Shown here: positions 205 to 23,007 of the stretch, piece after piece
Position numbering within the stretch: position 1 is the stretch's first letter
How the letters are laid out: each line of letters starts with the position of its first letter
Assembly (NCBI GenBank): GCA_016202645.1
Contig: JACQOF010000049.1
Span: 1-32,084 of the forward strand
Length of the DNA: 32,084 nucleotides
Origin: a bacterium
Lineage (GTDB): Bacteria > Lindowbacteria > 2-12-FULL-62-27
Reading direction: 5' to 3'
Program-made: the position numbers and the translations under genes
Notes under the pieces: model-generated
Told to the model about the DNA's origin: nothing
The model's input: only the letters and a program-made list of their open reading frames with translations
Database searches by the model: none

Positions 205-214
205 CCGCACTTCA

Positions 215-252
215 CTTCCTCCCCCCTTGCGGGGGAGGCCAGGAGGGGGGTC
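215..252. repeat. Family A arm, left end of the DUF559 unit
   Basis: A pyrimidine-rich then purine-rich imperfect palindrome: a CCCCCC run, TTG, a GGGGG run, then AGG...GGGGGG. It is the inverted counterpart of 584-621, with four mismatches in 38. It lies in the gap between the cobJ stop and the DUF559 start codon. Confidence 0.85.
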
Positions 253-263
253 GAGGTTTCCGC

Positions 264-641
264 ATGACAAACGCACGCGCCATAGAATTGCGAAAGACCA
301 TGACGGAATCCGAGAAAAAGTTGTGGTATCATCTCCGCCTTCGGCAAAGGGACGGCTGTAAATTCCGCCGGCAGCATCCTCTCGGGCCCTATGTGGTCGA
401 TTTTGTGTGTCTCGATAAACGTCTGATCATCGAAGTAGACGGCGGACAGCATGCCGAGCAGGAAGGATACGATCGTGAGCGGACAGCGTGGCTTGAAAGC
501 GCGGGATTTCGCGTGATGAGATTTTGGAATAACGAGATATTGAGAGAGATGGAAGCGGTTCTGGAACAAATCGACCAAACATTGACCCCCCTCCCAGCCT
601 CCCCCTCAAGGGGGGAGGAGGTTGAAGGTCAAATGCCATGA
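264..641 (+). CDS. DUF559 endonuclease-like protein
   Basis: A 125-residue protein of the DUF559 family, which has the very-short-patch-repair/restriction-endonuclease-like fold. Visible hallmarks are E18 in SEKKLW, D46 in VVDF, then IIEVDGGQH with E57, D59 and H63, and the C-terminal GFRVMRFWNNEIL block. The D...ExD...H arrangement suggests an active metal-dependent nuclease; no substrate is known from sequence. Residues from about 108 onward (TPLPASPSRGEE) are encoded by the right repeat arm and are not part of the normal domain. The gene is flanked by inverted repeats, and its TGA overlaps the cobM ATG (ATGA), so the two may be translationally coupled. The family assignment is firm; a role in moving the repeat is inferred from position only. 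Confidence 0.85.
   Translation: MTNARAIELRKTMTESEKKLWYHLRLRQRDGCKFRRQHPLGPYVVDFVCLDKRLIIEVDGGQHAEQEGYDRERTAWLESAGFRVMRFWNNEILREMEAVLEQIDQTLTPLPASPSRGEEVEGQMP
584..621. repeat. Family A arm, right end of the DUF559 unit
   Basis: The inverted partner of 215-252. It is read through by the DUF559 frame as TPLPASPSRGEEV, so the arm forms the C-terminus of the protein. Its core, CCTCCCCCTCAAGGGGGGAG, is shared with the arms at 1429-1467, 7401-7437 and 22961-22996. Confidence 0.85.
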
Positions 642-1471
642 GAAATTCGGAAAATGCACCCGTGGTTTACCTTGTCGGCGCCGGCCCGGGCGACCCGGAA
701 CTCATCACGATCAAGGGCAAGCGCCTGCTGGAGGAAGCCGACGTCGTCGTCTACGCGGGGTCGCTGATTCCTCCGGAAGTTTTAAAGATGGCCGCGTGCG
801 CCGAGGAACTGCATGACAGCGCCAAAATGACGCTGGAGCAGATCGTCGATGTGATTTCGGCGGCTGTCCGCGCCGGGAAAAAAGTTGTGCGGCTTGCGTC
901 CGGAGATCCGACTATTTTCGGAGCGTCCGCCGAGCAGTCGGAGGCTCTGGCGAAGGCCGGGATTGATCTTGTCACCGTGCCCGGCGTGAGTTCCTTCACG
1001 GCGGCCGCCGCCGCGCTCGGTCAGGAACTCACGCTTCCGGAAATCTGCCAGACCGTCATCCTCACCCGCGCCGCCGGCCGCACGCCCATGCCGCCGGCCG
1101 AAAAACTCCGGGAGATGGCCGCGCACCGCGCGGTCATCGCGCTGTTTCTGTCGGCCTCTCTCGGCAAAGACGTCCAGCGGGACCTCATCGACGGCGGGTA
1201 TGCCGCCGACACGCCGGTTGCGCTGGTCTACCGCGTGACCTGGCCGGACCAGCGCGTCGTGCGGTGCCGGCTGGAGGAGCTGGCGGAAACGCTCAAATCC
1301 GAAAAAATAACGAAAACCGCGCTGATCCTCGTCGGCGAGGCTGTCCGCGAGCGCGGCGAGCGGTCGAAGCATACGCGGTCGAAATTGTATGATCCGGGGT
1401 TCAGCCATGAATATAGAAAATCCGTTGGAACCCCCCTCCCTGCCTCCCCCTCAAGGGGGGAGGAGGGATGA
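638..1471 (+). CDS. cobM: Precorrin-4 C11-methyltransferase
   Basis: A 277-residue tetrapyrrole methylase of the CobM/CbiF group, which transfers a methyl group from S-adenosylmethionine to C11 of precorrin-4 in cobalamin synthesis. The N-terminal SAM-binding loop VGAGPGDP is at residues 13-20 and RLASGDPTIFGA at about 85-96. The typical family ending RSKLYDPGFSHEYR is present. After it, residues 265-277 (TPLPASPSRGEEG) come from a family A repeat arm that replaced the original terminus. The ATG overlaps the upstream DUF559 stop, and the TGA overlaps the start of the next gene. Together with the cobJ end this is part of a cobalamin cluster extending left of the window. Whether the pathway is aerobic or anaerobic cannot be decided here. 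Confidence 0.92.
   Translation: MRNSENAPVVYLVGAGPGDPELITIKGKRLLEEADVVVYAGSLIPPEVLKMAACAEELHDSAKMTLEQIVDVISAAVRAGKKVVRLASGDPTIFGASAEQSEALAKAGIDLVTVPGVSSFTAAAAALGQELTLPEICQTVILTRAAGRTPMPPAEKLREMAAHRAVIALFLSASLGKDVQRDLIDGGYAADTPVALVYRVTWPDQRVVRCRLEELAETLKSEKITKTALILVGEAVRERGERSKHTRSKLYDPGFSHEYRKSVGTPLPASPSRGEEG
1429..1467. repeat. Solo family A arm at the cobM 3' end
   Basis: One arm in the same orientation as 584-621. It is translated in frame as the cobM tail TPLPASPSRGEEG. Its purine-rich end (GGGGGGAGGAGGG) lies directly before the ATG at 1468 and would serve as the Shine-Dalgarno sequence of the GH57 gene. No inverted partner is next to it. Confidence 0.85.
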
Positions 1472-3453
1472 GACCGGTCGACTTCTGTCTCGTCCTCCAC
1501 GCCCACCTTCCGTACGTGCGGCATCCGGAGGTGGAGGAGCACGGGTTTGAGTGGTGGTTTTATGAGGCGTGCTGGGAGGTTTACGGGCCGCTGCTTCGAA
1601 TGTTCGAGCGGCTTGAGCATGACTCCGTGCCGTTCCGGATGACGATATCGATTTCTCCGCCGCTTCTGGCGATGTTTTCCGACCAGCTTCTTTCCGAACG
1701 GCTCGAACGGCACTTGAAGCGGCTTGCGGTCCTGACGGAAAAGGAGCGTGAGCGCACGCAAAACACACACTTTGCCGCCGCCGCCGCCCATTTTTATTAC
1801 CGCGTGCGGGACGCGCTTGACGTGTACCGCCGCTACCAGGGCAACCTCGCCGCGGGGTTCCGGCACTGGCAGGACGCGGGGCGGATCGAAGTCATCACCG
1901 CGCCGGCGACGCACGGGTTTTTGCCTCTGCTCCAGAGTTCTCCGGAATGCGCCGCGGCCCAGGTCCGGGTCGGCGCCAAATCCCACGAGAAGTTTTTCGG
2001 ATCCAAGCCCGCCGGGATGTGGCTTTCCGAATGCGCCTACATGCCTGCTCACGACGGCCAGCCGGGCGTGGACGATTTGCTTGCCGACGCCGGCATCCGG
2101 TACTTTTTTCTCGAATCCCACGGCGTGACGGGCGCCACGCCGCGCCCGCCCCGGGGCGTGGCCGCGCCGGTGCTGTGCCCGAGCGGCGTCGTCGCGTTCG
2201 GCCGGGACCCGGAGACTTCGAAACAAGTCTGGAGCGCGACCGAGGGGTATCCGGGAGACGCGTGGTACTGTGAACATCACAAGGATGCCGGATATTTTCT
2301 ATCGGCCGAACAGATCAAGCCCTTCCGTCCGGACCGGACGGGCCGGATTCCCATCGGGCTGAAATATTTCCGGGTCACGAGCAAGTCTTCGGGCCAGAAG
2401 AAAGCCTACGAGCCCCACATGGCGCTTCGCCGGGCGGCGTATCACGCCTCGCATTTCATTGGAAAACGCGCCGCCCAGGCCTACGGCCTCCAAAAGTTCT
2501 CCGGGAACGACTGGCCTGTCATCGTCGCGCCCTACGACGCGGAACTCTTCGGGCACTGGTGGCATGAAGGCCCCAAATTTCTGGAATACGTGTTCCGCAA
2601 GGCCCACGAGCGTCCGGGCCGCCTGCCGTTCCGGTTTGCCGTTCCATCCGACCGTCTCAAGTACCCGGTCTGGCACCGCGCTGTCCCGGCGGCGTCCAGT
2701 TGGGGCGACGGCGGCTATTTCAAAGTCTGGCTGAACGGAACGAATGATGAGCTTCTGCCGCTCATTGAATCCGCGAACGCCGCGATGGTCCGCGCCGTCC
2801 GGGATCACAGCGGGACCAAATCGGAGGTGCGCCGTCGCGCGCTGGAGCAGATGGGCCGACAGCTTCTGCTCGCGCAAAGTTCCGACTGGCCCTTCATCGC
2901 CACGACGTCCGGCGGGATCCGGGAGTACGCGAAGGACAAGGCGAAAAAATTTCTGAAGCGGTTCTGGGGCCTCTATCGCGCGGTGCGGAAGGGCGAAGTC
3001 TCATCCAGGGCGCTGGACACGCTCGAGCAGGACGACAACATTTTTCCGTGGCTGACAATCGGGGCCTGGAAGCCCGTCGCGGCGCCCGCCGGGAATCCGG
3101 ACGGGGCGATGGACCCGCTGCGCGCGGACCTGCTGGGCGTCAAGCCTGTCGAGCCTTTTCTCGGATTTGTCTGGTGGGATTTTTCGGCGCTTTCAAAAAA
3201 AATCGGGAAATCGAAACTCAGTTTGACCGTGAAGTGCCTGACGCCGCCCTTGTTTGAAAAATCAATTCCCTCGAACGCCCCGTCCGGCCGGTGGTACCTC
3301 CACCAGATCCGCCCGGGGTCGCGGTATCAGATGGAGGCCCGGCTGGAACCGGGCGGCGATCTGCTCGCGGTCTCCGTCCCGGCCCTTCTACCGGGAAGAA
3401 CGCGGCCGAAGAAGTGGACTTTCTTTAAGGGAGAAAGGGAGAAAGGGAGATAG
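1468..3453 (+). CDS. GH57 family 1,4-alpha-glucan branching enzyme (DUF1957 type)
   Basis: A 661-residue GH57 protein. The N-terminal HAHLPYV motif is at residues 11-17. WLSECAY contains the presumed nucleophile E188, and PYDAELFGHWWHEGP contains the presumed acid/base D357, matching GH57 branching enzymes. These cleave alpha-1,4-glucan and rejoin it as alpha-1,6 branches in the cytoplasm, in glycogen metabolism. A helical DUF1957-like region follows. Residues from about 560 (FLGFVWWDFSALSKK onward) look like an added beta domain resembling DUF4912, which is less certain. The start overlaps cobM (ATGA) and uses the repeat's G-rich end as ribosome-binding site. The last residues, GEREKGR, and the TAG are encoded by the family B repeat at 3427, so the natural C-terminus has been altered. 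No metabolic link to cobalamin is evident. Confidence 0.85.
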   Translation: MRPVDFCLVLHAHLPYVRHPEVEEHGFEWWFYEACWEVYGPLLRMFERLEHDSVPFRMTISISPPLLAMFSDQLLSERLERHLKRLAVLTEKERERTQNTHFAAAAAHFYYRVRDALDVYRRYQGNLAAGFRHWQDAGRIEVITAPATHGFLPLLQSSPECAAAQVRVGAKSHEKFFGSKPAGMWLSECAYMPAHDGQPGVDDLLADAGIRYFFLESHGVTGATPRPPRGVAAPVLCPSGVVAFGRDPETSKQVWSATEGYPGDAWYCEHHKDAGYFLSAEQIKPFRPDRTGRIPIGLKYFRVTSKSSGQKKAYEPHMALRRAAYHASHFIGKRAAQAYGLQKFSGNDWPVIVAPYDAELFGHWWHEGPKFLEYVFRKAHERPGRLPFRFAVPSDRLKYPVWHRAVPAASSWGDGGYFKVWLNGTNDELLPLIESANAAMVRAVRDHSGTKSEVRRRALEQMGRQLLLAQSSDWPFIATTSGGIREYAKDKAKKFLKRFWGLYRAVRKGEVSSRALDTLEQDDNIFPWLTIGAWKPVAAPAGNPDGAMDPLRADLLGVKPVEPFLGFVWWDFSALSKKIGKSKLSLTVKCLTPPLFEKSIPSNAPSGRWYLHQIRPGSRYQMEARLEPGGDLLAVSVPALLPGRTRPKKWTFFKGEREKGR

Positions 3454-3528
3454 GGAGATAGGGGGAGAAATTCGTATTTCTTTCAATCTTTGACTTTCTC
3501 CCTTTCTCCCTCTCTCCCTTTCTCCCTG
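3427..3528. repeat. Family B two-arm GGGAGAAA repeat between convergent genes
   Basis: The left arm (3427-3470) has tandem GGGAGAAA/GGGAGATA units on the plus strand. The right arm (3495-3528) is the inverted equivalent. The spacer is about 24 bases. Each arm has at least four GGG runs separated by five bases, which meets the usual G-quadruplex pattern on its G-rich strand. The GH57 stop lies in the left arm, and the Rieske stop abuts the right arm. It may act as a two-way transcript end; that is inference. Confidence 0.85.
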
Positions 3529-3828
3529 TCAATCCACCAGGACGTCGTCCCCCACAACCGTGATCTTGGGACACTCGACGGTGACATCCGGATTATTTTC
3601 GCAGGCGCCGGTCTTCACGTCAAAACTCCACCCGTGCCACGGGCACGTCACCACGCTTCCCTCCATCGACCCTTCGCCCAATGGCCCGCCAGCGTGCGGA
3701 CAGACGCCGTTCATGGCGTAAATCTGGCCGTCGACGTTGTAGAGCGCGATGCTCCGTCCGTCCGGCGCGTCGACCGGGATGCATTCTCCGGCCGGGATGT
3801 CTTTTACACTTGCGATTTTGGTTGGCAT
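3529..3828 (-). CDS. Rieske [2Fe-2S] ferredoxin
   Basis: A 99-residue single-domain Rieske protein. The cluster ligands are in CPHAGGPL (C43, H45) and CPWHGWSF (C62, H65), the standard CxH...CxxH pattern. There is no signal peptide or membrane segment, so it should be a soluble cytoplasmic electron carrier of the type that serves ring dioxygenases or nitrite reductases (NirD-like). The ATG at 3828 is preceded by GGAGG about 10 bases away. It stands alone, convergent with the GH57 gene and divergent from the helicase gene. No partner oxygenase is adjacent, so its redox partner cannot be named. The siroheme reductase at 16974 is one possible partner in this window, but nothing links the two. 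Confidence 0.9.
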   Translation of the reverse strand: MPTKIASVKDIPAGECIPVDAPDGRSIALYNVDGQIYAMNGVCPHAGGPLGEGSMEGSVVTCPWHGWSFDVKTGACENNPDVTVECPKITVVGDDVLVD

Positions 3829-3957: not shown

Positions 3958-6006
3958 ATGTCAATCGCCGCGTATCTCGGCCCGAAGGGCCGGTGGCTGA
4001 AGGAGGGGATGGAGTTTCGCCGCCCGCAGATGGAGATGGCCGAGGCGGTGTCCGACGCGCTGGACCGGGGCGAGTCGATGCTGATCGAGGCCGGCACGGG
4101 CGTCGGCAAGTCGATGGCGTATCTTCTGCCGGCGGCGCTCGCGGCGGCCCGCGACAAAATCCGGGTGCTGGTGTCGACCCACACCAAGGCGCTCCAGCAG
4201 CAGCTTGTGGAAAAGGATCTGCCGTTTCTCCAGGAGAAACTCCGGGCGGACGGCATACAATTTTCCTTCGCGCTTTTCATGGGCAGTGAAAATTTTCTGT
4301 GCCTCCGGCGGTTCCACCAGGCCTTTCGGGACTCGGCGTCCCTGTTTGATCAGGACGCCCACGCGGCGGCGCTTGCGCGCGTCAAAGAATTTGTCGATGC
4401 GCACCCAGCGCCGTCCCAGAGCGGCCTGCGGATGGATCTGCCGGAAGTTCCGGAGGAAATCTGGCGGCAGATTTTGCGGGAGAGCGACAACTGCATGTCG
4501 ACCCACTCGCCGTTTTACAAGGCCTGTTACCACCACGCGGCGCAGGACCGGATGAAGCAGGCCGACATTCTCGTCGTCAACCACGCGCTTTTCTTCACCA
4601 ACCTCGCCGCCGGCGGGCGGGTTCTGCCGAATTACGACGCGGTGATTTTCGACGAGGCCCACTCCGTCGAGGAAGTCGCGGCGGCGCACATGGGCATATC
4701 GGTGTCCAACACGTCGATCCGATGGCAGCTCGACCAGCTCCACCATCCCGGGTCCGAAAAGGGCCTCGCGCTGAGGTTCGCAAGCGTCGGGCCGCAGTGG
4801 CGGCGGAGCGTCATGGACCGCGTGAAGCGACTCCGGACTTTGGCGGACGCTTTTTTTGAAACCGTCCGGTCGGCCCTCAAGGCCGGCGCGGAGGAGGCCA
4901 TGCGGATCCGCAAAGCGGGGTTCGTCCCGGACACGCTGTCGAGGCCCCTCGATGACCTGTCGGAACTTTTGCGGGAGGGCCGGGACAGCCTGGAGAAACC
5001 CGAAGACAAACAGGAACTCAAGGCATACGCCGACCGGATCGCCGGGATGGGCGCGAAAATACGGACGTTTCTCAGTCAGGAAGACCGGATGATGGTTTAC
5101 TGGGTGGAAGTCGAGCTCCGCTCGCGCCGGGCGCGGCGCGACCGCGTGACACTGAAGGCCTCGCCCGTGGACCTTTCGAAGACCCTGAGGCAGGCGTTGT
5201 TTTCGAAGGACGGACCGCCATCCATTCTGACCTCGGCGTCTCTCACCGTTCAGAACGATTTTGATTTCATCCGAAGCCGGATCGGCGCGACCGAAGCCGC
5301 CGTTCCCGGCATTTCTCTCGGATCGCCGTTCGATTTCGCCCGCCAGGCCCTCCTGTATATTCCCGAATCCCTCCCGGACCCGGTAGATCGGGAGTCCGAG
5401 GCGTATTATGCCGCCGTGCTGAAGGAAACCCGCGATCTGATTTCCGCGTCGGGCGGCGGCGCGTTTGTGCTCTGCACGAGCCACGACTGGGTCGGGCGTC
5501 TCTTCCGCGATTTGTCGGACGAGCAAGCTCGACTCGCGGATTTTCATTTTTTCAAGCAGGAAGGCGCGCGGTCGTTCGGGATGCTCGATGAATTCCGGCG
5601 GACCGACCGCGCCGTCCTCATCGGCACCGACACGTTCTGGCAGGGCGTCGACGTTCCCGGCGACGCGTTACGGCTTGTCGTCGTCACGCGCCTGCCGTTT
5701 GCGCGGCCCACTCACCCGCTCGAGGAAGCGAGAGTCGAACACCTCCAAAACCAGGGATTCGATCCCTTCAACCGCCACACCCTCCCGACCGCCGTCCTGA
5801 TGCTCCGGCAGGGCGTGGGCCGCCTCATCCGCCGGGAGGGCGACCGCGGCGTCATCGCCATTTTGGATCCCCGCATCCGCACGCGGACCTACGGGCAGGT
5901 ATTTCTCAAGTCTCTGCCGCCGGCCAAGCGCACGACGCGTTTATCGGACGTCCGCTCGTTCTTCACTGGAGCAGGGAGAAAGGGAGAAAGGGAGAAAGGG
6001 AGATAG
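3958..6006 (+). CDS. DinG/XPD-family superfamily 2 helicase
   Basis: A 682-residue ATP-dependent DNA helicase of the DinG/YoaA (XPD-like) group, which unwinds 5'-3' in repair and R-loop or replication-conflict processing. The Walker A EAGTGVGKS has K51. The Walker B DEAH box is at 232-235, followed by typical motifs (TSASL; GTDTFWQGVDVPG; RQGVGRLIRR near the C-terminus). The region that normally holds four Fe-S cysteines has C115, C179 and C190, but Ser184 where the third cysteine is expected. The ATG at 3958 was chosen because the conserved N-terminus (FRRPQMEMAEAV) begins soon after. The C-terminal RKGEREKGR and the stop lie in the family B repeat at 5973. The DinG-type assignment is firm; the exact subfamily is not. 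Confidence 0.88.
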   Translation: MSIAAYLGPKGRWLKEGMEFRRPQMEMAEAVSDALDRGESMLIEAGTGVGKSMAYLLPAALAAARDKIRVLVSTHTKALQQQLVEKDLPFLQEKLRADGIQFSFALFMGSENFLCLRRFHQAFRDSASLFDQDAHAAALARVKEFVDAHPAPSQSGLRMDLPEVPEEIWRQILRESDNCMSTHSPFYKACYHHAAQDRMKQADILVVNHALFFTNLAAGGRVLPNYDAVIFDEAHSVEEVAAAHMGISVSNTSIRWQLDQLHHPGSEKGLALRFASVGPQWRRSVMDRVKRLRTLADAFFETVRSALKAGAEEAMRIRKAGFVPDTLSRPLDDLSELLREGRDSLEKPEDKQELKAYADRIAGMGAKIRTFLSQEDRMMVYWVEVELRSRRARRDRVTLKASPVDLSKTLRQALFSKDGPPSILTSASLTVQNDFDFIRSRIGATEAAVPGISLGSPFDFARQALLYIPESLPDPVDRESEAYYAAVLKETRDLISASGGGAFVLCTSHDWVGRLFRDLSDEQARLADFHFFKQEGARSFGMLDEFRRTDRAVLIGTDTFWQGVDVPGDALRLVVVTRLPFARPTHPLEEARVEHLQNQGFDPFNRHTLPTAVLMLRQGVGRLIRREGDRGVIAILDPRIRTRTYGQVFLKSLPPAKRTTRLSDVRSFFTGAGRKGEREKGR

Positions 6007-6091
6007 GCGGGATATCAGGTCAAAATCGCTGTTGGTGCGGTTGAAAAGGGTTGTCCTTTCTCCCTTTCTCCCTCTCTCCCTATCTCCCTTT
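5973..6091. repeat. Family B two-arm GGGAGAAA repeat, second copy
   Basis: The left arm (5973-6006) has GGGAGAAA units on the plus strand and the right arm (about 6055-6091) is inverted; the spacer is about 48 bases. As at 3427, it lies between convergent genes. The helicase stop is inside the left arm, and the DHH gene stop sits at the outer edge of the right arm. Each arm has four or more GGG runs on one strand. Confidence 0.85.
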
Positions 6092-7257
6092 CAAGAAACC
6101 CGGAGGGGATGCGTCGATTCGATCCTGACGCCTGTGGCGGTCCGGATGCGCTGGGCGAGGTATCGGCAGTACCAGATGAAGTTTCTGCCGCTGATGTAAG
6201 TCAGGCGTTCTCTCGGAAAATACCAGTTCGCCTGCGGGCGGCCGCTGGCCGCTTCGGGATGTCCGCCGTCGCGCGGCGCGCAGATTTTTTCAACGAGCGC
6301 CCCGAGATTGATTGCGCCGGGCCGAGTCGTGGCTTTGCGCGTGGTCAGGGCCCGGGATCCGTAGCAGTAGAAAAAATAATCCATCTGGACGAAATCCTTC
6401 AGATACCGCATCGCCGCCGCGACGTTCGGCAGGGGCTCGTGCTCGTAAACTTTCGGCACGAGACAGCAGACGATGTTCCAATCCTCGTCGGTCCCGGCGG
6501 GCTTGAACCGGATCTCGCAGAGACTGCGCTTAAGACGCGGCAGAACCCGGCTGATTCGCTCGTCATGCTCGGCCACGTAATGCTCCCAACCGAGGGCCTG
6601 AAAGAGGCGCGGCAGGTCCTCCGGCTCCTTCAATGTCTTCAGCGCCGTCGCCATCGCGTGTTTTGAATAGCCGTAGCCGATGAGTTTCGACAGCCGGACC
6701 CCGAGGGGATCTTCGCCGGTGTTGAGGTCCTGCTGGCGCGTGATTCGTCGCAGTTCCCGGAGGCCGTCGGTGTCGCAGGGGCCGTCGCGGATCACCGCGT
6801 CGTGGACCAGCTCCGCGCCGCAGGCCTGGGCTTCCTTCGGGAGTTGCTCTCCTTTTCTGGCGCCCGCGAGCGCATATCGTTCGATCAGTCCTTCCGACTT
6901 GAGACGGTTCAGAAGATCCACCTGCCAGTCCGACCAGGGATGGTGGTCGAGAAAATGGACGATCCGGCTGCCGCGCCGGCCCAGTTCCCGGATGTCGCCT
7001 TCAAGATCCGGAATCGTGTCGAGCGGGAGGTCGGGAATATAGAGGTCGGCGTTTTCGAACTCGCCGAGATTCCGGAGCAGTCCCTCGTGGTACTGCACGA
7101 ACGCCAATTCGTGCGGTACGCCGAGCTGTGTGGCCCAGGCGCCGTAAAACGCGTTCGAGCTGACGGTGTCGAGGTCCCCGCCTTCCTCCCGCGCGTCAGG
7201 ATGCCGCGGCGTGGCCCCGCGGCCATGGATGACAAACACTTTGAGTCGTTCTGCCAT
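6091..7257 (-). CDS. DHH/DHHA1-family phosphoesterase-like protein
   Basis: A 388-residue protein with both halves of a DHH-type phosphoesterase. The N-terminal half has GDLDTVSS (a DxD metal motif), DLYIPDLPLD, and VHFLDHHPWSD with the signature DHH triad. The C-terminal half has the substrate-binding GGHPEAASG motif of DHHA1. Characterised relatives hydrolyse short oligonucleotides, cyclic dinucleotides or polyphosphate using manganese. The central helical region and the charged N-terminal insertion (about residues 14-28) differ from classic NrnA or RecJ, so the substrate is unknown. There is no signal peptide. The gene is monocistronic, convergent with the helicase gene, with its stop at the edge of a family B repeat. 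The superfamily is confident; the function is open. Confidence 0.8.
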   Translation of the reverse strand: MAERLKVFVIHGRGATPRHPDAREEGGDLDTVSSNAFYGAWATQLGVPHELAFVQYHEGLLRNLGEFENADLYIPDLPLDTIPDLEGDIRELGRRGSRIVHFLDHHPWSDWQVDLLNRLKSEGLIERYALAGARKGEQLPKEAQACGAELVHDAVIRDGPCDTDGLRELRRITRQQDLNTGEDPLGVRLSKLIGYGYSKHAMATALKTLKEPEDLPRLFQALGWEHYVAEHDERISRVLPRLKRSLCEIRFKPAGTDEDWNIVCCLVPKVYEHEPLPNVAAAMRYLKDFVQMDYFFYCYGSRALTTRKATTRPGAINLGALVEKICAPRDGGHPEAASGRPQANWYFPRERLTYISGRNFIWYCRYLAQRIRTATGVRIESTHPLRVS

Positions 7258-7344
7258 AAGCGGGGTACCCTACCAAATGATTGGAGGAAATTGTACACTC
7301 GGCGGAATGAAGAGGAAACCGGGCTCGGAAGGGCGGTCATCAAA

Positions 7345-7437
7345 CTCTTCCCCCCTTGAGGGGGAAGTTGGAAGGGGGGTTTCAGCAGGGCGCGGCAGGA
7401 CACCCCCCACCCAGCCTCCCCCTCAAGGGGGGAGGAG
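7345..7437. repeat. Family A two-arm unit (93 bp, no gene)
   Basis: The left arm is about 7345-7380 and the inverted right arm 7401-7437. The spacer begins TTTCAGCA directly after the GGGGGG run. The whole unit aligns, arms and spacer start included, with the reverse complement of 22904-22996. It lies upstream of the dehydrogenase gene, and its G-rich right end (GGGGGGAGGAG) is placed to act as that gene's ribosome-binding site. Confidence 0.85.
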
Positions 7438-7438
7438 T

Positions 7439-8191
7439 TTGCGACAGCGTTACACGAACAGAGACATTCGTGTGGCATTGGTAACCGGCGCGGGCCGGCG
7501 GGTCGGCCGGATCATCGCGCTGCGCCTGGCGGCGGCGGGTTACGCGGTCGCGTCGCACTATCGGTCATCCGGCAGGGAGGCTGTGGACCTTGTTCGGGAA
7601 ATTCGAATGCGCGGCGGCCGGGCTGAAGCTTTTCAGGCGGACCTCACGCAAGTCTCGGAAATCCGCCGGCTGACCCGCTCCGTGGAGAAGCGCCTTGGCC
7701 CGGTGCGCCTGTTGGTCAACTCGGCGTCCGTTTTTTTTCCGCGGCCGTTTTCGTCCGTATCCGAACGGGACTGGGACAGGACCATTGACGCGAATTTAAA
7801 ATCCGTTTTTTTTCTGTCGCAGGAAGTTTCCCGCCGGATGATCCGCCGCGCCGCGGCGGGCGTCATCATAAACATCGAGGATGCCGCCGTCCGGAGACCC
7901 TACCGGAACCACGCGCCCTACCTCGTTTCAAAAGCCGGCGTGGCCATGCTGACCCGCGTCCTGGCGATGGAACTGGGGCCGCGCGTCCGTGTCTGCGGCG
8001 TCGCGCCCGGCCCGGTGCTTCTGCCGGAAGGATACTCGGCGGCCGCCCGCCGCAAGGCCGTACACCATACGCTTCTCAAACGCGGTGGATCGCCGGAGGA
8101 CGTCGCCGCCGCCGTCCTCTTTCTCGCCGACCGCGCCCCCTACACCACCGGCACGACCGTTTTCGTCGACGGCGGCCGCTCGGCCGCGTAG
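7439..8191 (+). CDS. Short-chain dehydrogenase/reductase (pteridine-reductase-like)
   Basis: A classical SDR with an N-terminal Rossmann fold: VTGAGRRVG (cofactor loop), HYRSS, LVNSAS, and the catalytic Tyr/Lys in PYLVSK, then VAPGPVLLPEG and a C-terminal VDGGRS. The pattern GAGRRVG...NSAS...PGPVLLPEG is typical of SDRs annotated as pteridine reductase or FolM-like, which reduce dihydropterins with NADPH; the true substrate is unknown. The start is uncertain. I chose TTG 7439 because the repeat-derived GGAGG lies just upstream (250 residues). GTG 7472 gives 239 residues but has no visible ribosome-binding site. The usual serine is replaced (NIEDAAV), as in some members of this subgroup. It ends 20 bases before the ligase gene, so the two may be co-transcribed. 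Confidence 0.82.
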   Translation: MRQRYTNRDIRVALVTGAGRRVGRIIALRLAAAGYAVASHYRSSGREAVDLVREIRMRGGRAEAFQADLTQVSEIRRLTRSVEKRLGPVRLLVNSASVFFPRPFSSVSERDWDRTIDANLKSVFFLSQEVSRRMIRRAAAGVIINIEDAAVRRPYRNHAPYLVSKAGVAMLTRVLAMELGPRVRVCGVAPGPVLLPEGYSAAARRKAVHHTLLKRGGSPEDVAAAVLFLADRAPYTTGTTVFVDGGRSAA

Positions 8192-8211: not shown

Positions 8212-10668
8212 ATGTGGGAGGCCCGCGATGCGGCGGCGGTCGCGGTCGTTTTTTTTCTCGCGCTATGGGCTCTGACCCGCCGGCCCGATCGCCTGTCGCA
8301 AGTTTTGTTCGGAGGTATCCTCGTCACTCTGGTTTTTGTGATTTTGTATTTTTCGGTCAAGTTTCAAAACATCGTGATCGGCAAGGATATTTTCGCCCAG
8401 GTGGCGGGGTATACGCTCTTCCTGCTCTGGGTTTCGCACCTCTTCCGGAAAAACGGCTTTCAATTTTCGCCAGGCCCGCTCAACATCGCGGTCTGCGCGT
8501 TTTTCCTCCTCTCGGTTCTGTCGGCCTTCCTGGCGCCGCGCTGGGCCTGGTACTATTCGCTGGAGGAAATATCGAGGATCGCGGCGATGATCCTCCTCTA
8601 CTTTCTGACCGTCCGGTTTCTGAACACGGAATATCGCTGGAAAATCGGCCTCTACGCCATCCTCACCCTGATGGTTGTCACCTCCGTCTACGCGATCCTG
8701 CAGATCCACGGGTATGACTTCATGTCGTGGGGATTCATCGTGAACGTGTCGACCTTCGGCAACAAGGATTTCTTCGCGTCCTTTCTCACGTACACTTTTC
8801 CCATCGCCCTCTTTATGGCCGTCGGGGCGAAGAACGTCTTCGACCGGATCCTGTATCTGGCCATGTCAGGCCTGGCGCTCTACAACATCATCGAAGGCAA
8901 GACCCGCGGGGCGTGGGTAGGGCTGATGGCCCTGGCGGCGGTCTGGATCCTCTTTGAGGCGAGACTTGGGCGTCTGAGGGAGTGGCTCGGCGGTTTCAAA
9001 AAGCAGGCGATCTTCTGGGCCGCAATATCCGCCGTTCTTCTCGCGCTGATTCCGTTCGTTCCCGCCCACGAAAAGGAAACCTTCCGGTCCATCTTTCAGG
9101 CCAACCGCGGCACGAATATCATCCGGATCTATATCTGGTGGGCGAGCTTGAGAATGTGGTGGGACGAGCCGGTGATCGGGCAGGGACTCGGAACGATACA
9201 GCTGACGTACCCGTTTTTCCGGCCCGAGAGATACCACCGAATCGGGATGTCCCACAACACCCGGCACGCGCACTCGGAGGAACTGGAGCTTCTCGGCGAG
9301 CAGGGCATCCTCGGGTTTTCGGCGTGGCTTGCGTTTATCGCGATCTTTTTTTGGCTGGGCCTGAAAAAACTCAGGCGAATCCCCGGACTTTCGGACCGCT
9401 ACCTTTTTTTCGGTCTCCTGTCCGGCATGTTCGCGGGTCTGGTGCACGATTCGATCAACGTCAACCTCCGGTGGATGACCAGCGCCGTCACGTTCTGGTT
9501 TCTGCTTGCTGTCTGCACCCGCCGCATCATCGGCTTTGATCCGCCGCCCGACCTCAAGGCCGCCCGGAAATCTGAAAGCCGGACGGCGGCGTGGCGGCCG
9601 GACTGGCGCGAGTGGATTCTGGCGGTCCCGATCACGGCGGTCTTCGCGTTCATGTTCTGGATGGAGTGGCGGGTCCTGCGGGCTGATTGGATCTTGAAAA
9701 CAGTGGAGGGCACGATCGAGCGGGATGGAGGCCAGGAGCGGGGCATCGCGGCGGCCCGCCAGGTTTTGCTGGACGTGCCGTACGATCATTCCGCCTACTA
9801 CAAGGGTGCCTACGGGTATCTTCGCCTGAACCGGATCGACGAGGCCCAGGCGTTCTATCACCGGCTCATGAACATGGCGCCGAACTACGCGCAGATTCAC
9901 CAGAACATGGCGCTGATTGCCTACCGGAAATTTCTCGCGAAGGGCGATCTGAAGTGGCTCTACCAGGCGGTGATTGAATTCGAATGGTCCACCATTCTCG
10001 AAAATAATTACGACAACCACTTCCGCCTCATCCAGCTTTACACCCAGCACCTGCCGGGCGGCGCGCGCCACCGCTATCACAACCGGTATCTGTTCTGGAA
10101 CGCCAAAGAGGATTCCGTCTTCAACGCCTGGCGATATTACTACGGAATTGGGATCCTGCCCAACGCGGCGGAGTCTGTCCGGCGGCACTACTATGACGAG
10201 TACATGAAGTCGGTCGATGAGGGCACCCTGACGTACTGGCTCTACCGGGTCGACCTGGCCAAACAGCTTGGCCGGCCGATGGAGGAACAACGATACACGT
10301 TGAACACGGCCATCCTGTTCAAGCCCGACCATCGCGACCTTGTCAACCTCGCGCTGAATTCTCTCCTGCTCGATCCGTCCTCCGACCGGCCGGAGGACCG
10401 GAATCAGAATATCCTGACGATCCTCCGGATCATCGAGGGACTGCCGCCGGAATCCGGCGCGACGGAGATTTGGGGTCGGATCCGGCAGGAACTGGAGCAC
10501 CGCGCGGCGTTGCCGGGACGACAGGCCGACCCGGTTCTCACATACGCCCTCGGCGTCGCGGCGTACCGGCAGGGGGACATGGACCGTGCCCGGACCTGGT
10601 TTTCCGAGGCCAAATCCCTGACGCGGCAACGAACCCTACTTGACGGGATCGCCGGATACGGGATATGA
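8212..10668 (+). CDS. O-antigen ligase-like membrane protein with TPR tail (copy 1)
   Basis: An 818-residue protein. The N-terminal half has roughly 11-13 hydrophobic membrane helices. The middle has a Wzy_C-type periplasmic loop including NVSTFGNKDFFASF, IGQGLGT and SHNTRHAHSEELELLGEQG. The last 320 or so residues are soluble, with tetratricopeptide-like helical repeats (RIDEAQAFYHRLMNMAPNYA). The Wzy/WaaL/PglL superfamily moves lipid-linked glycans onto lipid A, protein or a growing polymer at the periplasmic face; the acceptor here is unknown. The ATG at 8212 has GGAG nine bases upstream; GTG 8197 is possible. The protein is closely paralogous to the next gene. No glycosyltransferases are adjacent. 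Confidence 0.82.
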   Translation: MWEARDAAAVAVVFFLALWALTRRPDRLSQVLFGGILVTLVFVILYFSVKFQNIVIGKDIFAQVAGYTLFLLWVSHLFRKNGFQFSPGPLNIAVCAFFLLSVLSAFLAPRWAWYYSLEEISRIAAMILLYFLTVRFLNTEYRWKIGLYAILTLMVVTSVYAILQIHGYDFMSWGFIVNVSTFGNKDFFASFLTYTFPIALFMAVGAKNVFDRILYLAMSGLALYNIIEGKTRGAWVGLMALAAVWILFEARLGRLREWLGGFKKQAIFWAAISAVLLALIPFVPAHEKETFRSIFQANRGTNIIRIYIWWASLRMWWDEPVIGQGLGTIQLTYPFFRPERYHRIGMSHNTRHAHSEELELLGEQGILGFSAWLAFIAIFFWLGLKKLRRIPGLSDRYLFFGLLSGMFAGLVHDSINVNLRWMTSAVTFWFLLAVCTRRIIGFDPPPDLKAARKSESRTAAWRPDWREWILAVPITAVFAFMFWMEWRVLRADWILKTVEGTIERDGGQERGIAAARQVLLDVPYDHSAYYKGAYGYLRLNRIDEAQAFYHRLMNMAPNYAQIHQNMALIAYRKFLAKGDLKWLYQAVIEFEWSTILENNYDNHFRLIQLYTQHLPGGARHRYHNRYLFWNAKEDSVFNAWRYYYGIGILPNAAESVRRHYYDEYMKSVDEGTLTYWLYRVDLAKQLGRPMEEQRYTLNTAILFKPDHRDLVNLALNSLLLDPSSDRPEDRNQNILTILRIIEGLPPESGATEIWGRIRQELEHRAALPGRQADPVLTYALGVAAYRQGDMDRARTWFSEAKSLTRQRTLLDGIAGYGI

Positions 10669-10678
10669 GATACGGGAC

Positions 10679-13147
10679 ATGATGGATATTCTGTTCTACC
10701 TCTTCCAGAAGCCGATGGTATACGCCATCGGCTATGCGACTGCGGCCTTTGTGGTCTTCTATTTCCTCAGCCGGACCCGGCAGGGCCTAGCGAACGTGGT
10801 CTTTGTCTGGATCCTGGTCGAGATCGTTTTCGTCAGCCTTCACTTCACGGCGCGCCTGAACAACATTGTCATTCTGAAGGACATTTCCTACCAGGTCATT
10901 AATTTCGGCCTCCTGCTCCTATGGATCTCACATCTGCCGGAAAAGGACGGCTTCAAGTTCACCCCGACGCCGATGAATATCGCTGTTTTCGGGTTTTTCG
11001 TGGCGTGCGTCATCACGACCTACACCGCCCCCCGGATTTTCTGGTACTACGCGGTCGAGTGGGCCTCGCGGTTCGGCGCGTCCATCGCCATCTTTTTTCT
11101 GATCGTCCAATTTTCGAACACGCGTTTCCGGTGGAACATCACTCTCTACACGCTTCTGGCCATGATGGTTGTCTCGTCCATTTACGGCATCATGCAGGTG
11201 CGCGGCTACGATTTCATGACCTGGGGCCGCGTCGTGAACGTCTCGACATTCGGGAACAAGGATTTCTTCGCGTCCTTTCTGACCTACACCGCCCCCATTG
11301 CGCTCTTTATGGCGTTCGGCGCGCGCAATATTTTTGACGGCCTGCTCTATCTGGCCATGGCCTGGACCGGCCTCTACAACATGTGGACGGGCGAGACCCG
11401 CGGGGCCTGGGTCGGCATGATGGCTCTGGCGGGTGTGTGGTTTATATTCGAGTGCAGGTTTGGGCGTCTGCAGAGATTGCTGGGAAGCTGGAAAAAGCAG
11501 GCGGTCTTCTGGTCGGCTTTGCTTGTTCTCACCGTCGTTCTGACACCCGTGCTCATGTCCCCGCACCGGCTGGAAACCTTCCGGTCCATTTTCCAGTTTC
11601 ACAAGGGCACCAACATCATCCGCGTCTATATGTGGTGGACCGGCGGGCGCATGTGGTGGGACGCGCCGATTCTCGGGCAGGGACTGGGGGCCTCGCACGT
11701 CACCTATCCCTTCTACCGCCCCGACCGGTATCACCGCATCGGCATGTCGCACAACACCGACTACGTCCACTCCGAGGAACTGCAATTTTTGTGCGAGCAG
11801 GGGATCGTCGGATTTTCGGCGTGGCTGGCGATGATCGGGGTGTTTTTCTACATCTGCTACCGGAAACTGAGGACTCTCGGGGACGTCACGGAACGGTACA
11901 CGCTCTTTGGCATCGCCGGCGCGTTTTTCGCGGCGGTGGTCCACGACTCCATGAACGTCAACCTCCGCTGGACGGGGAGCATGATCGCCTTCTGGACGGT
12001 CCTCGCCCTCGGCACCCGCTACGCCATCGGGTTTGACCCGCCGTCCGACAGCCGCATCGTGCAGAAGGAAACCCGGCGTCGCGGCCTCCGGAGGGACTAT
12101 ATCGCCTTTTCCTACAAGACCTGGATTCTCTTCCCCGTGGTGACGGCGGCGTTCGCGTTCATGTTTTACGGACAGTACCGAGTCCTCCGGGGCGATTGGG
12201 CCCTCAAGAACACAGAGGATGGCAGCGGGCCGCCGGCCACGGCGTCGGGACACGATACGCTGAAGTATAATCCCTACAGCCATTCCGCCTACTACAAGGT
12301 CGCGTATCATTATCTGAACGAGAGCAACCTCAAAGACGCGTTAAAGATGTACGAAGGCCTCCTGACCATCGCGCCCAATTACGCCCAGACCCACCAGAAC
12401 ACGGGGCTGGTCTATTACCGGTTTTACGGCAATAGCGGCCAGAGAAAATATCTTTATCAATCGGTTCTCGAGTTTGAGTGGGCGACGATCCTTGAAAACA
12501 ATTTCGACAACCACACCAAACTCCTCCAGCTCTGGACCCAGCTCTTGAGCCACTCCGGGCGCGCCCGGTATCACAATCAGTACATTGCCTGGAACAGCCT
12601 GGAGGATGCCGTCCACAACCTCTGGCTGTTTTACGTCAACCACTGGAACATGCCCAATGCGGCACAGGCCACCAAAGACCACTTATACGACGTGTACATG
12701 AAACCGATCGACGAGAGCCGCAAGGCCTACTGGCTCTACCGCACCGACACGGTGCGGCGGGTGGGCCGGCCGAAGGAGGAAATCCGCTACGCGATGAAGA
12801 TGTCGACGCGGTTTGAGCACGCGAACATCAACCTTCTCCAGTACGGGATCAATTCCCTTCTGGTTGACCAGGTTCAGACAGCGGAGGACATGCTTTTTCT
12901 CATCAGCATCATCGAGAGCATGGATCCCCGGGAAGTTCCTCCGGCGCTTTTTTATCAGGGCCTGCAGACTCTGCGGGAGCGAGTGATTCCTTCCAACTAC
13001 GAGGCCATCGGCGCCTACGCCATGGGGGTTCTGTCGCATAAACTCGGCGATCTTTCCGGCGCCCGGAATCACTTCCAGATCGCCCAGGGGTTGGGGGCGT
13101 CGCGCTACGAATTCATCCGGGAGGGCGTCAAGAAGTACGGGATTTAG
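10679..13147 (+). CDS. O-antigen ligase-like membrane protein with TPR tail (copy 2)
   Basis: An 822-residue tandem paralogue of the upstream gene with the same order: hydrophobic helices, Wzy_C loop, soluble TPR-like tail. Long blocks are the same or nearly so, for example NVSTFGNKDFFASFLTYT, GTNIIRVYMWW, RYHRIGMSHNT and HSEELQFLCEQG. The tail keeps SHSAYYK and APNYAQTHQN. ATG 10679 or the adjacent ATG 10682 starts it, 10 bases after the first gene's stop, so they should be one transcript. The paralogues have diverged most in the N-terminal helix and the linker before the TPRs, consistent with an old duplication and different acceptors. The family is clear, the substrate unknown. Confidence 0.82.
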   Translation: MMDILFYLFQKPMVYAIGYATAAFVVFYFLSRTRQGLANVVFVWILVEIVFVSLHFTARLNNIVILKDISYQVINFGLLLLWISHLPEKDGFKFTPTPMNIAVFGFFVACVITTYTAPRIFWYYAVEWASRFGASIAIFFLIVQFSNTRFRWNITLYTLLAMMVVSSIYGIMQVRGYDFMTWGRVVNVSTFGNKDFFASFLTYTAPIALFMAFGARNIFDGLLYLAMAWTGLYNMWTGETRGAWVGMMALAGVWFIFECRFGRLQRLLGSWKKQAVFWSALLVLTVVLTPVLMSPHRLETFRSIFQFHKGTNIIRVYMWWTGGRMWWDAPILGQGLGASHVTYPFYRPDRYHRIGMSHNTDYVHSEELQFLCEQGIVGFSAWLAMIGVFFYICYRKLRTLGDVTERYTLFGIAGAFFAAVVHDSMNVNLRWTGSMIAFWTVLALGTRYAIGFDPPSDSRIVQKETRRRGLRRDYIAFSYKTWILFPVVTAAFAFMFYGQYRVLRGDWALKNTEDGSGPPATASGHDTLKYNPYSHSAYYKVAYHYLNESNLKDALKMYEGLLTIAPNYAQTHQNTGLVYYRFYGNSGQRKYLYQSVLEFEWATILENNFDNHTKLLQLWTQLLSHSGRARYHNQYIAWNSLEDAVHNLWLFYVNHWNMPNAAQATKDHLYDVYMKPIDESRKAYWLYRTDTVRRVGRPKEEIRYAMKMSTRFEHANINLLQYGINSLLVDQVQTAEDMLFLISIIESMDPREVPPALFYQGLQTLRERVIPSNYEAIGAYAMGVLSHKLGDLSGARNHFQIAQGLGASRYEFIREGVKKYGI

Positions 13148-15775: not shown

Positions 15776-16906
15776 TTATGCCTCCTCTGATATTTTCTGG
15801 ATGACGCGTTCCGTCACTTCCGCTGTGCCGGCCGCCCCGCCCAAGTCCCTCGTTCGAAGCCCGCTTTTCAGCGCGCCCGCAACGCCCCGCTCGACCTCGT
15901 CCGCCAGATCCGGCCGCTTGAGGCCGTGGCGGAACATCAAGGCGATCGTCAGAAACATCGCCAGCGGATTGGCCAAGCCCTTCCCCGCGATGTCCGGCGC
16001 GCTGCCGTGGACCGGTTCGAAGAGGCCCGGGCCCGACGCGCCGAGGCACGCCGACGGCAGAAGCCCGATCGAGCCGACCAGTTCAGCGCACAGGTCAGAC
16101 AAAATGTCTCCAAAAAGATTCTCCGTCAAGAGGACGTCAAACTGGCCCGGGTCCCGCACCAGCTGCATCGCGGCGTTGTCGACGTACAGATGCAGGAGTT
16201 CCACGTCCGGATAATCCCGGGCGACCTCGGTCACGACTTCCCGCCAGAGCTGTGAAACTTCCAGGACGTTGGCCTTATCGACACTCGTCACGCGTTTCCG
16301 CCGCCCCCGCGCCGCCTCAAACGCCATCTTCGCGATCCGCCGGATTTCCTCCTCTGAATAGATCATCGTATTATACGCAGTCCGCCCTATCGCCGTTTTG
16401 CCTTTCTCCCTTTCTCCCTTTCTCCCTTTCTCCCTCTCTCCCTCCCCCCGCCCCCGCGGCTCCCCGAAATACAACCCTCCCGTCAACTCCCGGAACACGA
16501 TCAGATCCACGCGCGCGGCGATCTCGGGTTTCAGTTTCGACGCCGAAACCAAGTCGGGAAAAATCCTGGCCGGCCGAAGATTCGCGAACGCACCGAGACC
16601 CTTCCGAAGCGCGAGAAGCCCCGCCTCGGGCCTCAGATTCGCCGGGCCGGTGTCCCACTTCGGCCCGCCGAGCGCCGCCAGAAGCACTGCGTCGGAACTG
16701 CGCATGAGGTCGAGATCCGCCGGCCGGAGCGGCACGCCGTGCGCGTCAAGCGCCGCGCCGCCGATGGCGTACTCGGCGTACTCGAAGGCGATCCCCCGAC
16801 GCCGAGCCAGATCATCCATGACCCGGCGGCCCGCCGCCATGACCTCGGGACCGATTCCGTCCCCGGGCAAAAGCGCAATCCGATACCGATGAGCGGTCGC
16901 ATTCAT
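15776..16906 (-). CDS. leuB: 3-isopropylmalate dehydrogenase with repeat-encoded insertion
   Basis: A 376-residue leucine biosynthesis enzyme that oxidises and decarboxylates 3-isopropylmalate using NAD. Visible blocks: LLPGDGIGPEVM, LRPEAGLLALRK (substrate arginines), ELTGGLYFGEP, VDKANVLEVSQLW, LTENLFGDILSDL and GPGLFEPVHGSAPDIAGKG. Residues about 154-171 (GEGEREKGRKGEREKGK) are not part of the family. They are encoded by a family B repeat arm inserted in frame in the loop between GEPRGR and AYNTMIYSEEE, making the protein 10-15 residues longer than usual. The ATG at 16906 was chosen because the conserved N-terminus starts a few residues later. All catalytic residues remain, so the enzyme is probably active. 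First gene of its operon, divergent from the siroheme reductase. Confidence 0.93.
   Translation of the reverse strand: MNATAHRYRIALLPGDGIGPEVMAAGRRVMDDLARRRGIAFEYAEYAIGGAALDAHGVPLRPADLDLMRSSDAVLLAALGGPKWDTGPANLRPEAGLLALRKGLGAFANLRPARIFPDLVSASKLKPEIAARVDLIVFRELTGGLYFGEPRGRGEGEREKGRKGEREKGKTAIGRTAYNTMIYSEEEIRRIAKMAFEAARGRRKRVTSVDKANVLEVSQLWREVVTEVARDYPDVELLHLYVDNAAMQLVRDPGQFDVLLTENLFGDILSDLCAELVGSIGLLPSACLGASGPGLFEPVHGSAPDIAGKGLANPLAMFLTIALMFRHGLKRPDLADEVERGVAGALKSGLRTRDLGGAAGTAEVTERVIQKISEEA
16401..16448. repeat. Single family B arm inside leuB
   Basis: Tandem TTTCTCCC units on the plus strand (GGGAGAAA on the leuB coding strand), inserted in frame in leuB. No inverted second arm is adjacent. 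The leuB coding strand here has more than four closely spaced GGG runs. Confidence 0.85.
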
Positions 16907-22827: not shown

Positions 22828-22903
22828 AACATTCGTAGTATATCAGATTTCGATATCACGCGCCCGCGATATTTTACCCAGGCCCGTCTCCGGTTTTTAA
22901 AAA

Positions 22904-22996
22904 CTCCTCCCCCCTTGAGTGGGAGGCTGGGAGGGGGGTGCCCAAACGTCGCATTGCTGAAACCCCCCTCCTTACCTCCCCCTCAAGGGGGGAGGA
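22904..22996. repeat. Family A two-arm unit (93 bp), opposite orientation
   Basis: The left arm is 22904-22940 and the inverted right arm 22961-22996. Its reverse complement aligns with 7345-7437, including the spacer start TTTCAGCA and the following GCG. It occupies most of the 180-base gap between the alpha-CTD-like gene (stop at 23008) and the transglutaminase gene (start at 22827). The remainder of that gap shows nothing clear. Confidence 0.85.
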
Positions 22997-23007
22997 ACGG
23001 CGTTTCC

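Follow-up and report, generated by a model that had tools for sequence, protein, structure and literature searches.

Near the start of the window (the whole stretch of DNA that was analysed, 32,084 nucleotides), a small gene on the + strand (264..641) encodes a DUF559 nuclease of 125 aa (PF04480, 148.5 bits, E 7e-44). It lies between a gene that we take to be cobJ from its C-terminus and a cobM-like tetrapyrrole methylase gene (638..1471, + strand; PF00590; 82% identity in the relative G001). Two arms accompany the DUF559 gene. The left arm (214..259) has a hairpin on its outer side and a G-rich tail towards the gene. The right arm (577..622) is its inverted copy (inverted repeat I1) and overlaps the 3' end of the ORF, and the last ~17 DUF559 codons are read from it. 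The sequence-only reading of this stretch had described 38-base inverted repeats (34/38 identical). The inverted arrangement holds, but the extent is corrected to 46 nt for each arm, with 87% complementarity and 317 nt between them. Moreover, each arm consists of a hairpin (CCTCCCCC-loop-GGGGGAGG, with pyrimidines on the 5' side) joined to a G-rich tail. There is no GTAG-type tag in the arms as read.

The same reading had located gene-less copies of the arms, and these are found in the window. Two-arm units lacking a gene lie at 7341..7441 (arms 7341-7383 and 7399-7441, 15-nt spacer; inverted repeat I5) and at 22901..22997 (22-nt spacer; inverted repeat I20). A solo arm lies at 1430-1469. As an insertion (1427..1467) it extends the 3' end of cobM by 39 nt in frame, which adds GTPLPASPSRGEE. 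The peptide TPLPASPSRGEE is common to the C-terminal ends of DUF559, where it comes from the right arm, and of cobM, where it comes from the solo arm. Tails point inwards in most of the paired units examined, as they do around the window DUF559 gene. Paired arms at the loci examined are mostly in the order '-' then '+', 61-82 bp from start to start, which is the geometry found around DUF559. G000, the window's genome (2.9 Mb, 82% complete), contains a single full DUF559 gene. With up to 3 mismatches allowed, the 22-nt arm core matches this genome 138 times and the reversed pattern 0 times, so the copies are not a product of chance. These dispersed arms are solo or form inverted pairs. The window also holds arrays of 8-nt units (CTTTCTCCC / AGGGAGAAA) at 3412-3550, 5965-6112 and 16394-16466, another pyrimidine/purine repeat that partly forms facing inverted pairs around genes. 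Two tandem genes at 8547-12315 are 72-75% identical and 2.5 kb apart, and the first matches the O-antigen ligase family (Wzy_C).

Both insertion sites can be compared with relatives. The cobJ gene of G002, a genome of the same family, ends in KPGVSLKIN, and cobM follows ~60 nt on, with neither arm nor DUF559 between them, whereas the inter-cob interval of the window (205..637) holds the arm-DUF559-arm unit. The next gene directly abuts the cobM terminus (FSHxYRKASV) in G001 as well as in G002, and the solo arm is absent from both. Compared with them, the solo arm is a clean 39-nt in-frame insertion in the window cobM. Because these sites are empty in relatives, the arm-DUF559-arm unit and the solo arm would be insertions in the window lineage, less likely losses elsewhere. 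The arms are inverted like the terminal repeats of DDE-type IS elements and MITEs, but no target-site duplication is definable at three empty sites (cobJ-cobM, the cobM 3' end, and a recG site described below).

The sequence-only reading had placed a small DUF559 gene with intact putative catalytic residues between cobJ and cobM. The PF04480 match agrees with this, as does conservation: E15, W19, Q35, E55, D57, G58 and D68 are invariant over 79 homologues, and D44 and H61 are nearly so. The protein also matches PF18741 weakly and does not match PF01797, the family used to recognise Y1/HUH transposases. Structural relatives found by profile A5 include 3hrl, an 'endonuclease-like protein' (4e-37), and the homing endonuclease I-Bth0305I (3r3p, 1.6e-6 over 69 positions). 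On profile similarity, DUF559 is a distant relative of I-Bth0305I. EDxHD enzymes have a restriction-enzyme-like active site (reviewed in PMC3943268), and a DUF559 gene has been placed in the EDxHD family (PMC9403480). There are also DUF559 genes that have been reported together with inteins. The evidence favours a putative EDxHD/Vsr-like nuclease of the homing type, and no chemistry shared with RAYTs is implied.

In Caulobacter, the DUF559 protein VsrA causes DNA damage and SOS induction upon loss of a cytosine methyltransferase, and it has been interpreted as a Vsr-like repair enzyme (PMC12907096). This finding speaks for an explanation in which DUF559 is a host Vsr-like repair or defence nuclease and the arms are regulatory hairpins (terminators or attenuators) that damp a toxic gene. 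The strong folding of the arms also speaks for it. However, 100+ arm copies lie far from DUF559, arms are read in frame within protein-coding genes, and the arms form an inverted pair on both sides of the gene. We regard this explanation as improbable. The defence-system reading itself was rejected, with no strong defence-family match and only a weak match to DpdF.

DUF559 loci were collected by searching for the family in 98 genomes, nearly every one from a separate family, and in one class. Further loci came from a protein search of GTDB contigs and from extra copies, and 117 had enough flank. An arm-type hairpin lies within 200 bp of DUF559 at 96 of the 117 loci, from many phyla, compared with 68 of 1,189 random equal-sized stretches of the same loci. 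Hairpins on both sides are seen at 51/117 loci and around 3/1,189 random stretches. Arms thus flank DUF559 well above chance, as had been expected from the window. Their density is 0.84-0.88 per 150 bp directly upstream of DUF559 and mostly 0-0.1 past 300 bp. Purine-first control hairpins are rare around DUF559, and arms accompany none of ten weak DUF559-like domains within large proteins. Reading into the arm is common, with about 51 of 125 DUF559 ORFs terminating inside or beyond the downstream arm.

In 62 of 72 cases, the two arms at a locus are inverted relative to one another, and they match each other better than they match the arms of other loci. Arm similarity tracks DUF559 protein similarity (Mantel r 0.36, p 5e-4). 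DUF559 paralogues sharing a genome have different arms. In G001, for example, two full DUF559 genes (L003 and L166) have distinct arm types, and both types are dispersed in a 400-kb sample.

Arm copy number was also predicted to track DUF559, and it does so in the 98 genomes, in the single class and, as a trend discussed below, in E. coli. For these counts a generic hairpin pattern was used with a reversed control; the pattern can also catch unrelated GC-rich repeats. Among the 98 genomes, arm copy number is higher with DUF559 (p=3.6e-7), and an arm excess of at least 3 is seen in 14/19 genomes with DUF559 and 11/79 without (p=8e-7). In the class, comprising 150 genomes, the median is 50.5 arms with DUF559 versus 2 without (p=8e-7), and the link persists in a family-stratified permutation (p=2.5e-4). 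Across the genomes surveyed, these comparisons show that arm abundance goes with DUF559 presence and that paralogues differ in their arms. The sequence-only reading had named DUF559 orthologues that commonly lack flanking arms, and arms equally abundant in relatives without DUF559, as counter-evidence. Armless DUF559 genes and arm-rich genomes lacking DUF559 do occur, but as exceptions: about 20% of DUF559 genes have no nearby arm, the family f105 reaches up to 333 arms without DUF559, and the genome G041 is likewise arm-rich and DUF559-less.

G041 has 19 Y1_Tnp genes, and G000 has 10. In addition, Y1_Tnp presence weakly predicts arms in the 98 genomes (p=0.004). These observations would fit mobilisation of the arms by RAYT or TIRYT (Y1_Tnp) enzymes, with DUF559 as cargo or a chance neighbour. 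However, window-type arms flank none of the eight G000 Y1_Tnp genes examined. Instead, those with clear inverted repeats carry others, such as CAGTGCCAGGTATTGAGTTATTGAGTTATGGG, which fit the TIRtrons of Di Nocera (PMC3733652). Furthermore, DUF559 predicts arms in Y1-positive (p=4e-5) as well as Y1-negative (p=0.01) genomes, and in genomes with DUF559 the presence of Y1_Tnp makes no further difference. In G096, 70 arms occur with two DUF559 genes and no Y1 gene. Given the other flanking repeats and the effect of DUF559 within the Y1 strata, a RAYT as the arm mobiliser is not supported, and we give this explanation little credence. The Y1_Tnp genes of G000 (L120-L127) mostly encode ~300 aa, and at least four have their own long inverted repeats on either side. 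One of these repeats (CCAGGTATTGAGTTATTGAGTTA) is also solitary near arms at L040 and L041.

The arm-DUF559-arm unit is also found within host genes. At many loci it is read in frame within a host protein, namely the LeuRS editing domain, RecG, IleRS, Mfd, a CapF-like protein and a Type ISP enzyme. The inserts in LeuRS and RecG are ~150 aa long and bounded by arms, and uninterrupted structures align on both flanks. Arm-flanked DUF559 occupies one LeuRS editing-domain site in many genera of Flavobacteriaceae (L085, L090, L091, L114, L115 and others), and because the site is the same in so many genera, this insert appears to have been long maintained. In a Rickettsiales Mfd (L061), DUF559 is accompanied by many translated in-frame copies of the arm (NPLPKEGEG, SLFGERVG). 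Rickettsia palindromic elements likewise place palindromic repeats in frame in protein-coding genes. We know of no enzyme associated with those elements, whereas DUF559 units have a nuclease gene between the arms. No intron or intein domain was detected at the in-frame inserts examined. At one locus (L182), DUF559 lies within a protein that resembles an intein by eye; no intein family matched, and the intein assignment was dropped.

The recG site of Flavobacteriaceae presents several states. It is empty in Algibacter, Marixanthotalea and Mariniflexile. H. ulvae and Confluentibacter have a lone right arm, Flavivirga has a left arm plus a remnant, and Hyunsoonleella flava has the full 407-bp insert. 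Read from sequence, this series shows a unit bounded by its arms. The order of events is not fixed, since a solo arm may be what a lost unit left behind. The series could represent the decay of an ancestral unit, for which gain would not be required. Taken with the window sites, the comparisons show that arms mark the ends of insertions, and that units and solo arms fill sites left unoccupied in relatives, some of them in frame within genes.

The solo arm at the site occupied by DUF559 in H. flava is also what would be expected if DUF559 were a selfish homing endonuclease that targets an arm or a two-arm unit. The arms would then be spread by another enzyme, and the gene would replace the short spacer. 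Two-arm units have spacers of 15-30 nt and the geometry of arm-DUF559-arm, and DUF559 has a homing endonuclease among its relatives, both in keeping with this explanation. By itself, however, homing does not account for arm copy number following DUF559 or for arm type following the DUF559 protein, and these correlations argue against it. No other candidate arm mobiliser was found, the Y1 genes of G000 having other repeats. We consider homing into arms unlikely, although it is the main rival.

In E. coli, the DUF559 gene ycjD has an arm-like repeat, CCCCTCGCCCCTCTGGGGAGAGGGTTAGGGTGAGGGG, in its 3' flank. The gene is held by 3,365 of 5,426 E. coli genomes. The repeat occurs at 1-23 places per genome, and in the sampled genomes the median number of other arm places is 13 with ycjD versus 3 without, a trend confounded by phylogroup. 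In K-12, ycjD (L157, NC_000913 1351407-1351760 and downstream) has a second, degenerate copy of the DUF559 3' end and another arm behind it. The arm-like repeat is probably Box C (56 bp, 32 copies); like the arms, it adjoins a DUF559 gene and is dispersed in the genome. Box C has been catalogued (PMC2267715), and ycjD is not mentioned there. Three polymorphic E. coli sites, yjdP-phnP, ypfG-tkt and zntA-tusA, were rejected as clean empty sites, being overlapped by other repeats or deletions. Strains lacking ycjD carry another insertion (TetR/efflux genes) beside fabI and therefore do not provide an empty site.

Together, these findings suggest that the DUF559 gene makes up a single small mobile element with its two hairpin arms, and that the gene-less arms and pairs are its derivatives, standing to it as REP/BIME repeats do to RAYT genes and arising by DUF559-driven copying. 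We assign this reading a probability of about 0.6. The mobility of the arm-DUF559-arm unit is well supported by the comparative data, and we infer that DUF559 probably performs it. As a mechanism, the DUF559 protein, with its predicted PD-(D/E)XK fold of the EDxHD/Vsr-like type, would recognise the arm hairpin or its junction and nick or break DNA at the arm or at the target. Copying repair would then leave an additional arm or a pair of arms, and occasionally an arm-gene-arm unit. The arms may remain tolerable through their small size, their frequent in-frame position and their tendency to land at gene ends.

The element resembles RAYT/REPtron and TIRtron systems. In each case, a small nuclease gene lies between short palindromes in inverted orientation, many further copies of which are scattered singly or in pairs, and paralogues each have their own repeat type. 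It differs from RAYTs in that DUF559, a PD-(D/E)XK protein, lacks the HUH/Y1 domain that defines them. Its hairpins are of the pyrimidine/purine type (CCCTCTCCC..GGGAGAGGG) with a G-rich tail, and they are often in frame in genes. Di Nocera 2013 (PMC3733652) reports that CGTC REPs have no dedicated transposase, and no DUF559 link is described in the sections consulted. In the accessible part of the DUF559/COG2852 literature, which excludes subscription papers, we found no report of repeat association.

The EDxHD homing endonuclease I-Bth0305I shares detectable homology with DUF559, and genes of both kinds can lie in frame inside host genes. However, DUF559 has dispersed palindromic arms with no intron found, and it is a bare domain of ~110 aa, whereas I-Bth0305I has extra DNA-binding regions. 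EDxHD genes lie in an intron or intein, or are free-standing at a cleaved site with empty alleles. For DUF559, in-frame inserts with empty sites are seen.

The best reading of the sequence data is a putative REP-like mobile unit with an EDxHD/Vsr-like nuclease in place of a Y1 transposase. The original proposal of a REP-like system built on DUF559 thus gains partial support, from the flanking arms, their copy number and the other repeats at RAYT-like genes. There is an even chance, in our estimation, that DUF559 units make up a separate class of mobile element. Here, an EDxHD/Vsr-like nuclease would multiply arms by cutting and repair, independently of HUH transposases, in many phyla and in frame into essential genes. 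Widespread CCCTCTCCC/GGGAGAGGG repeats, with E. coli Box C probably among them, would originate from such a class.

If the model is true, GC-rich palindromic repeats that are very common in bacteria would have an enzyme of their own, and a role would be assigned to the large PF04480 family, whose function is unknown. The model would also account for the odd presence of DUF559 inside LeuRS, RecG and other housekeeping proteins. REP-like repeats would have a second route of origin with different chemistry, and the presence of ycjD in E. coli K-12 makes the model directly testable.
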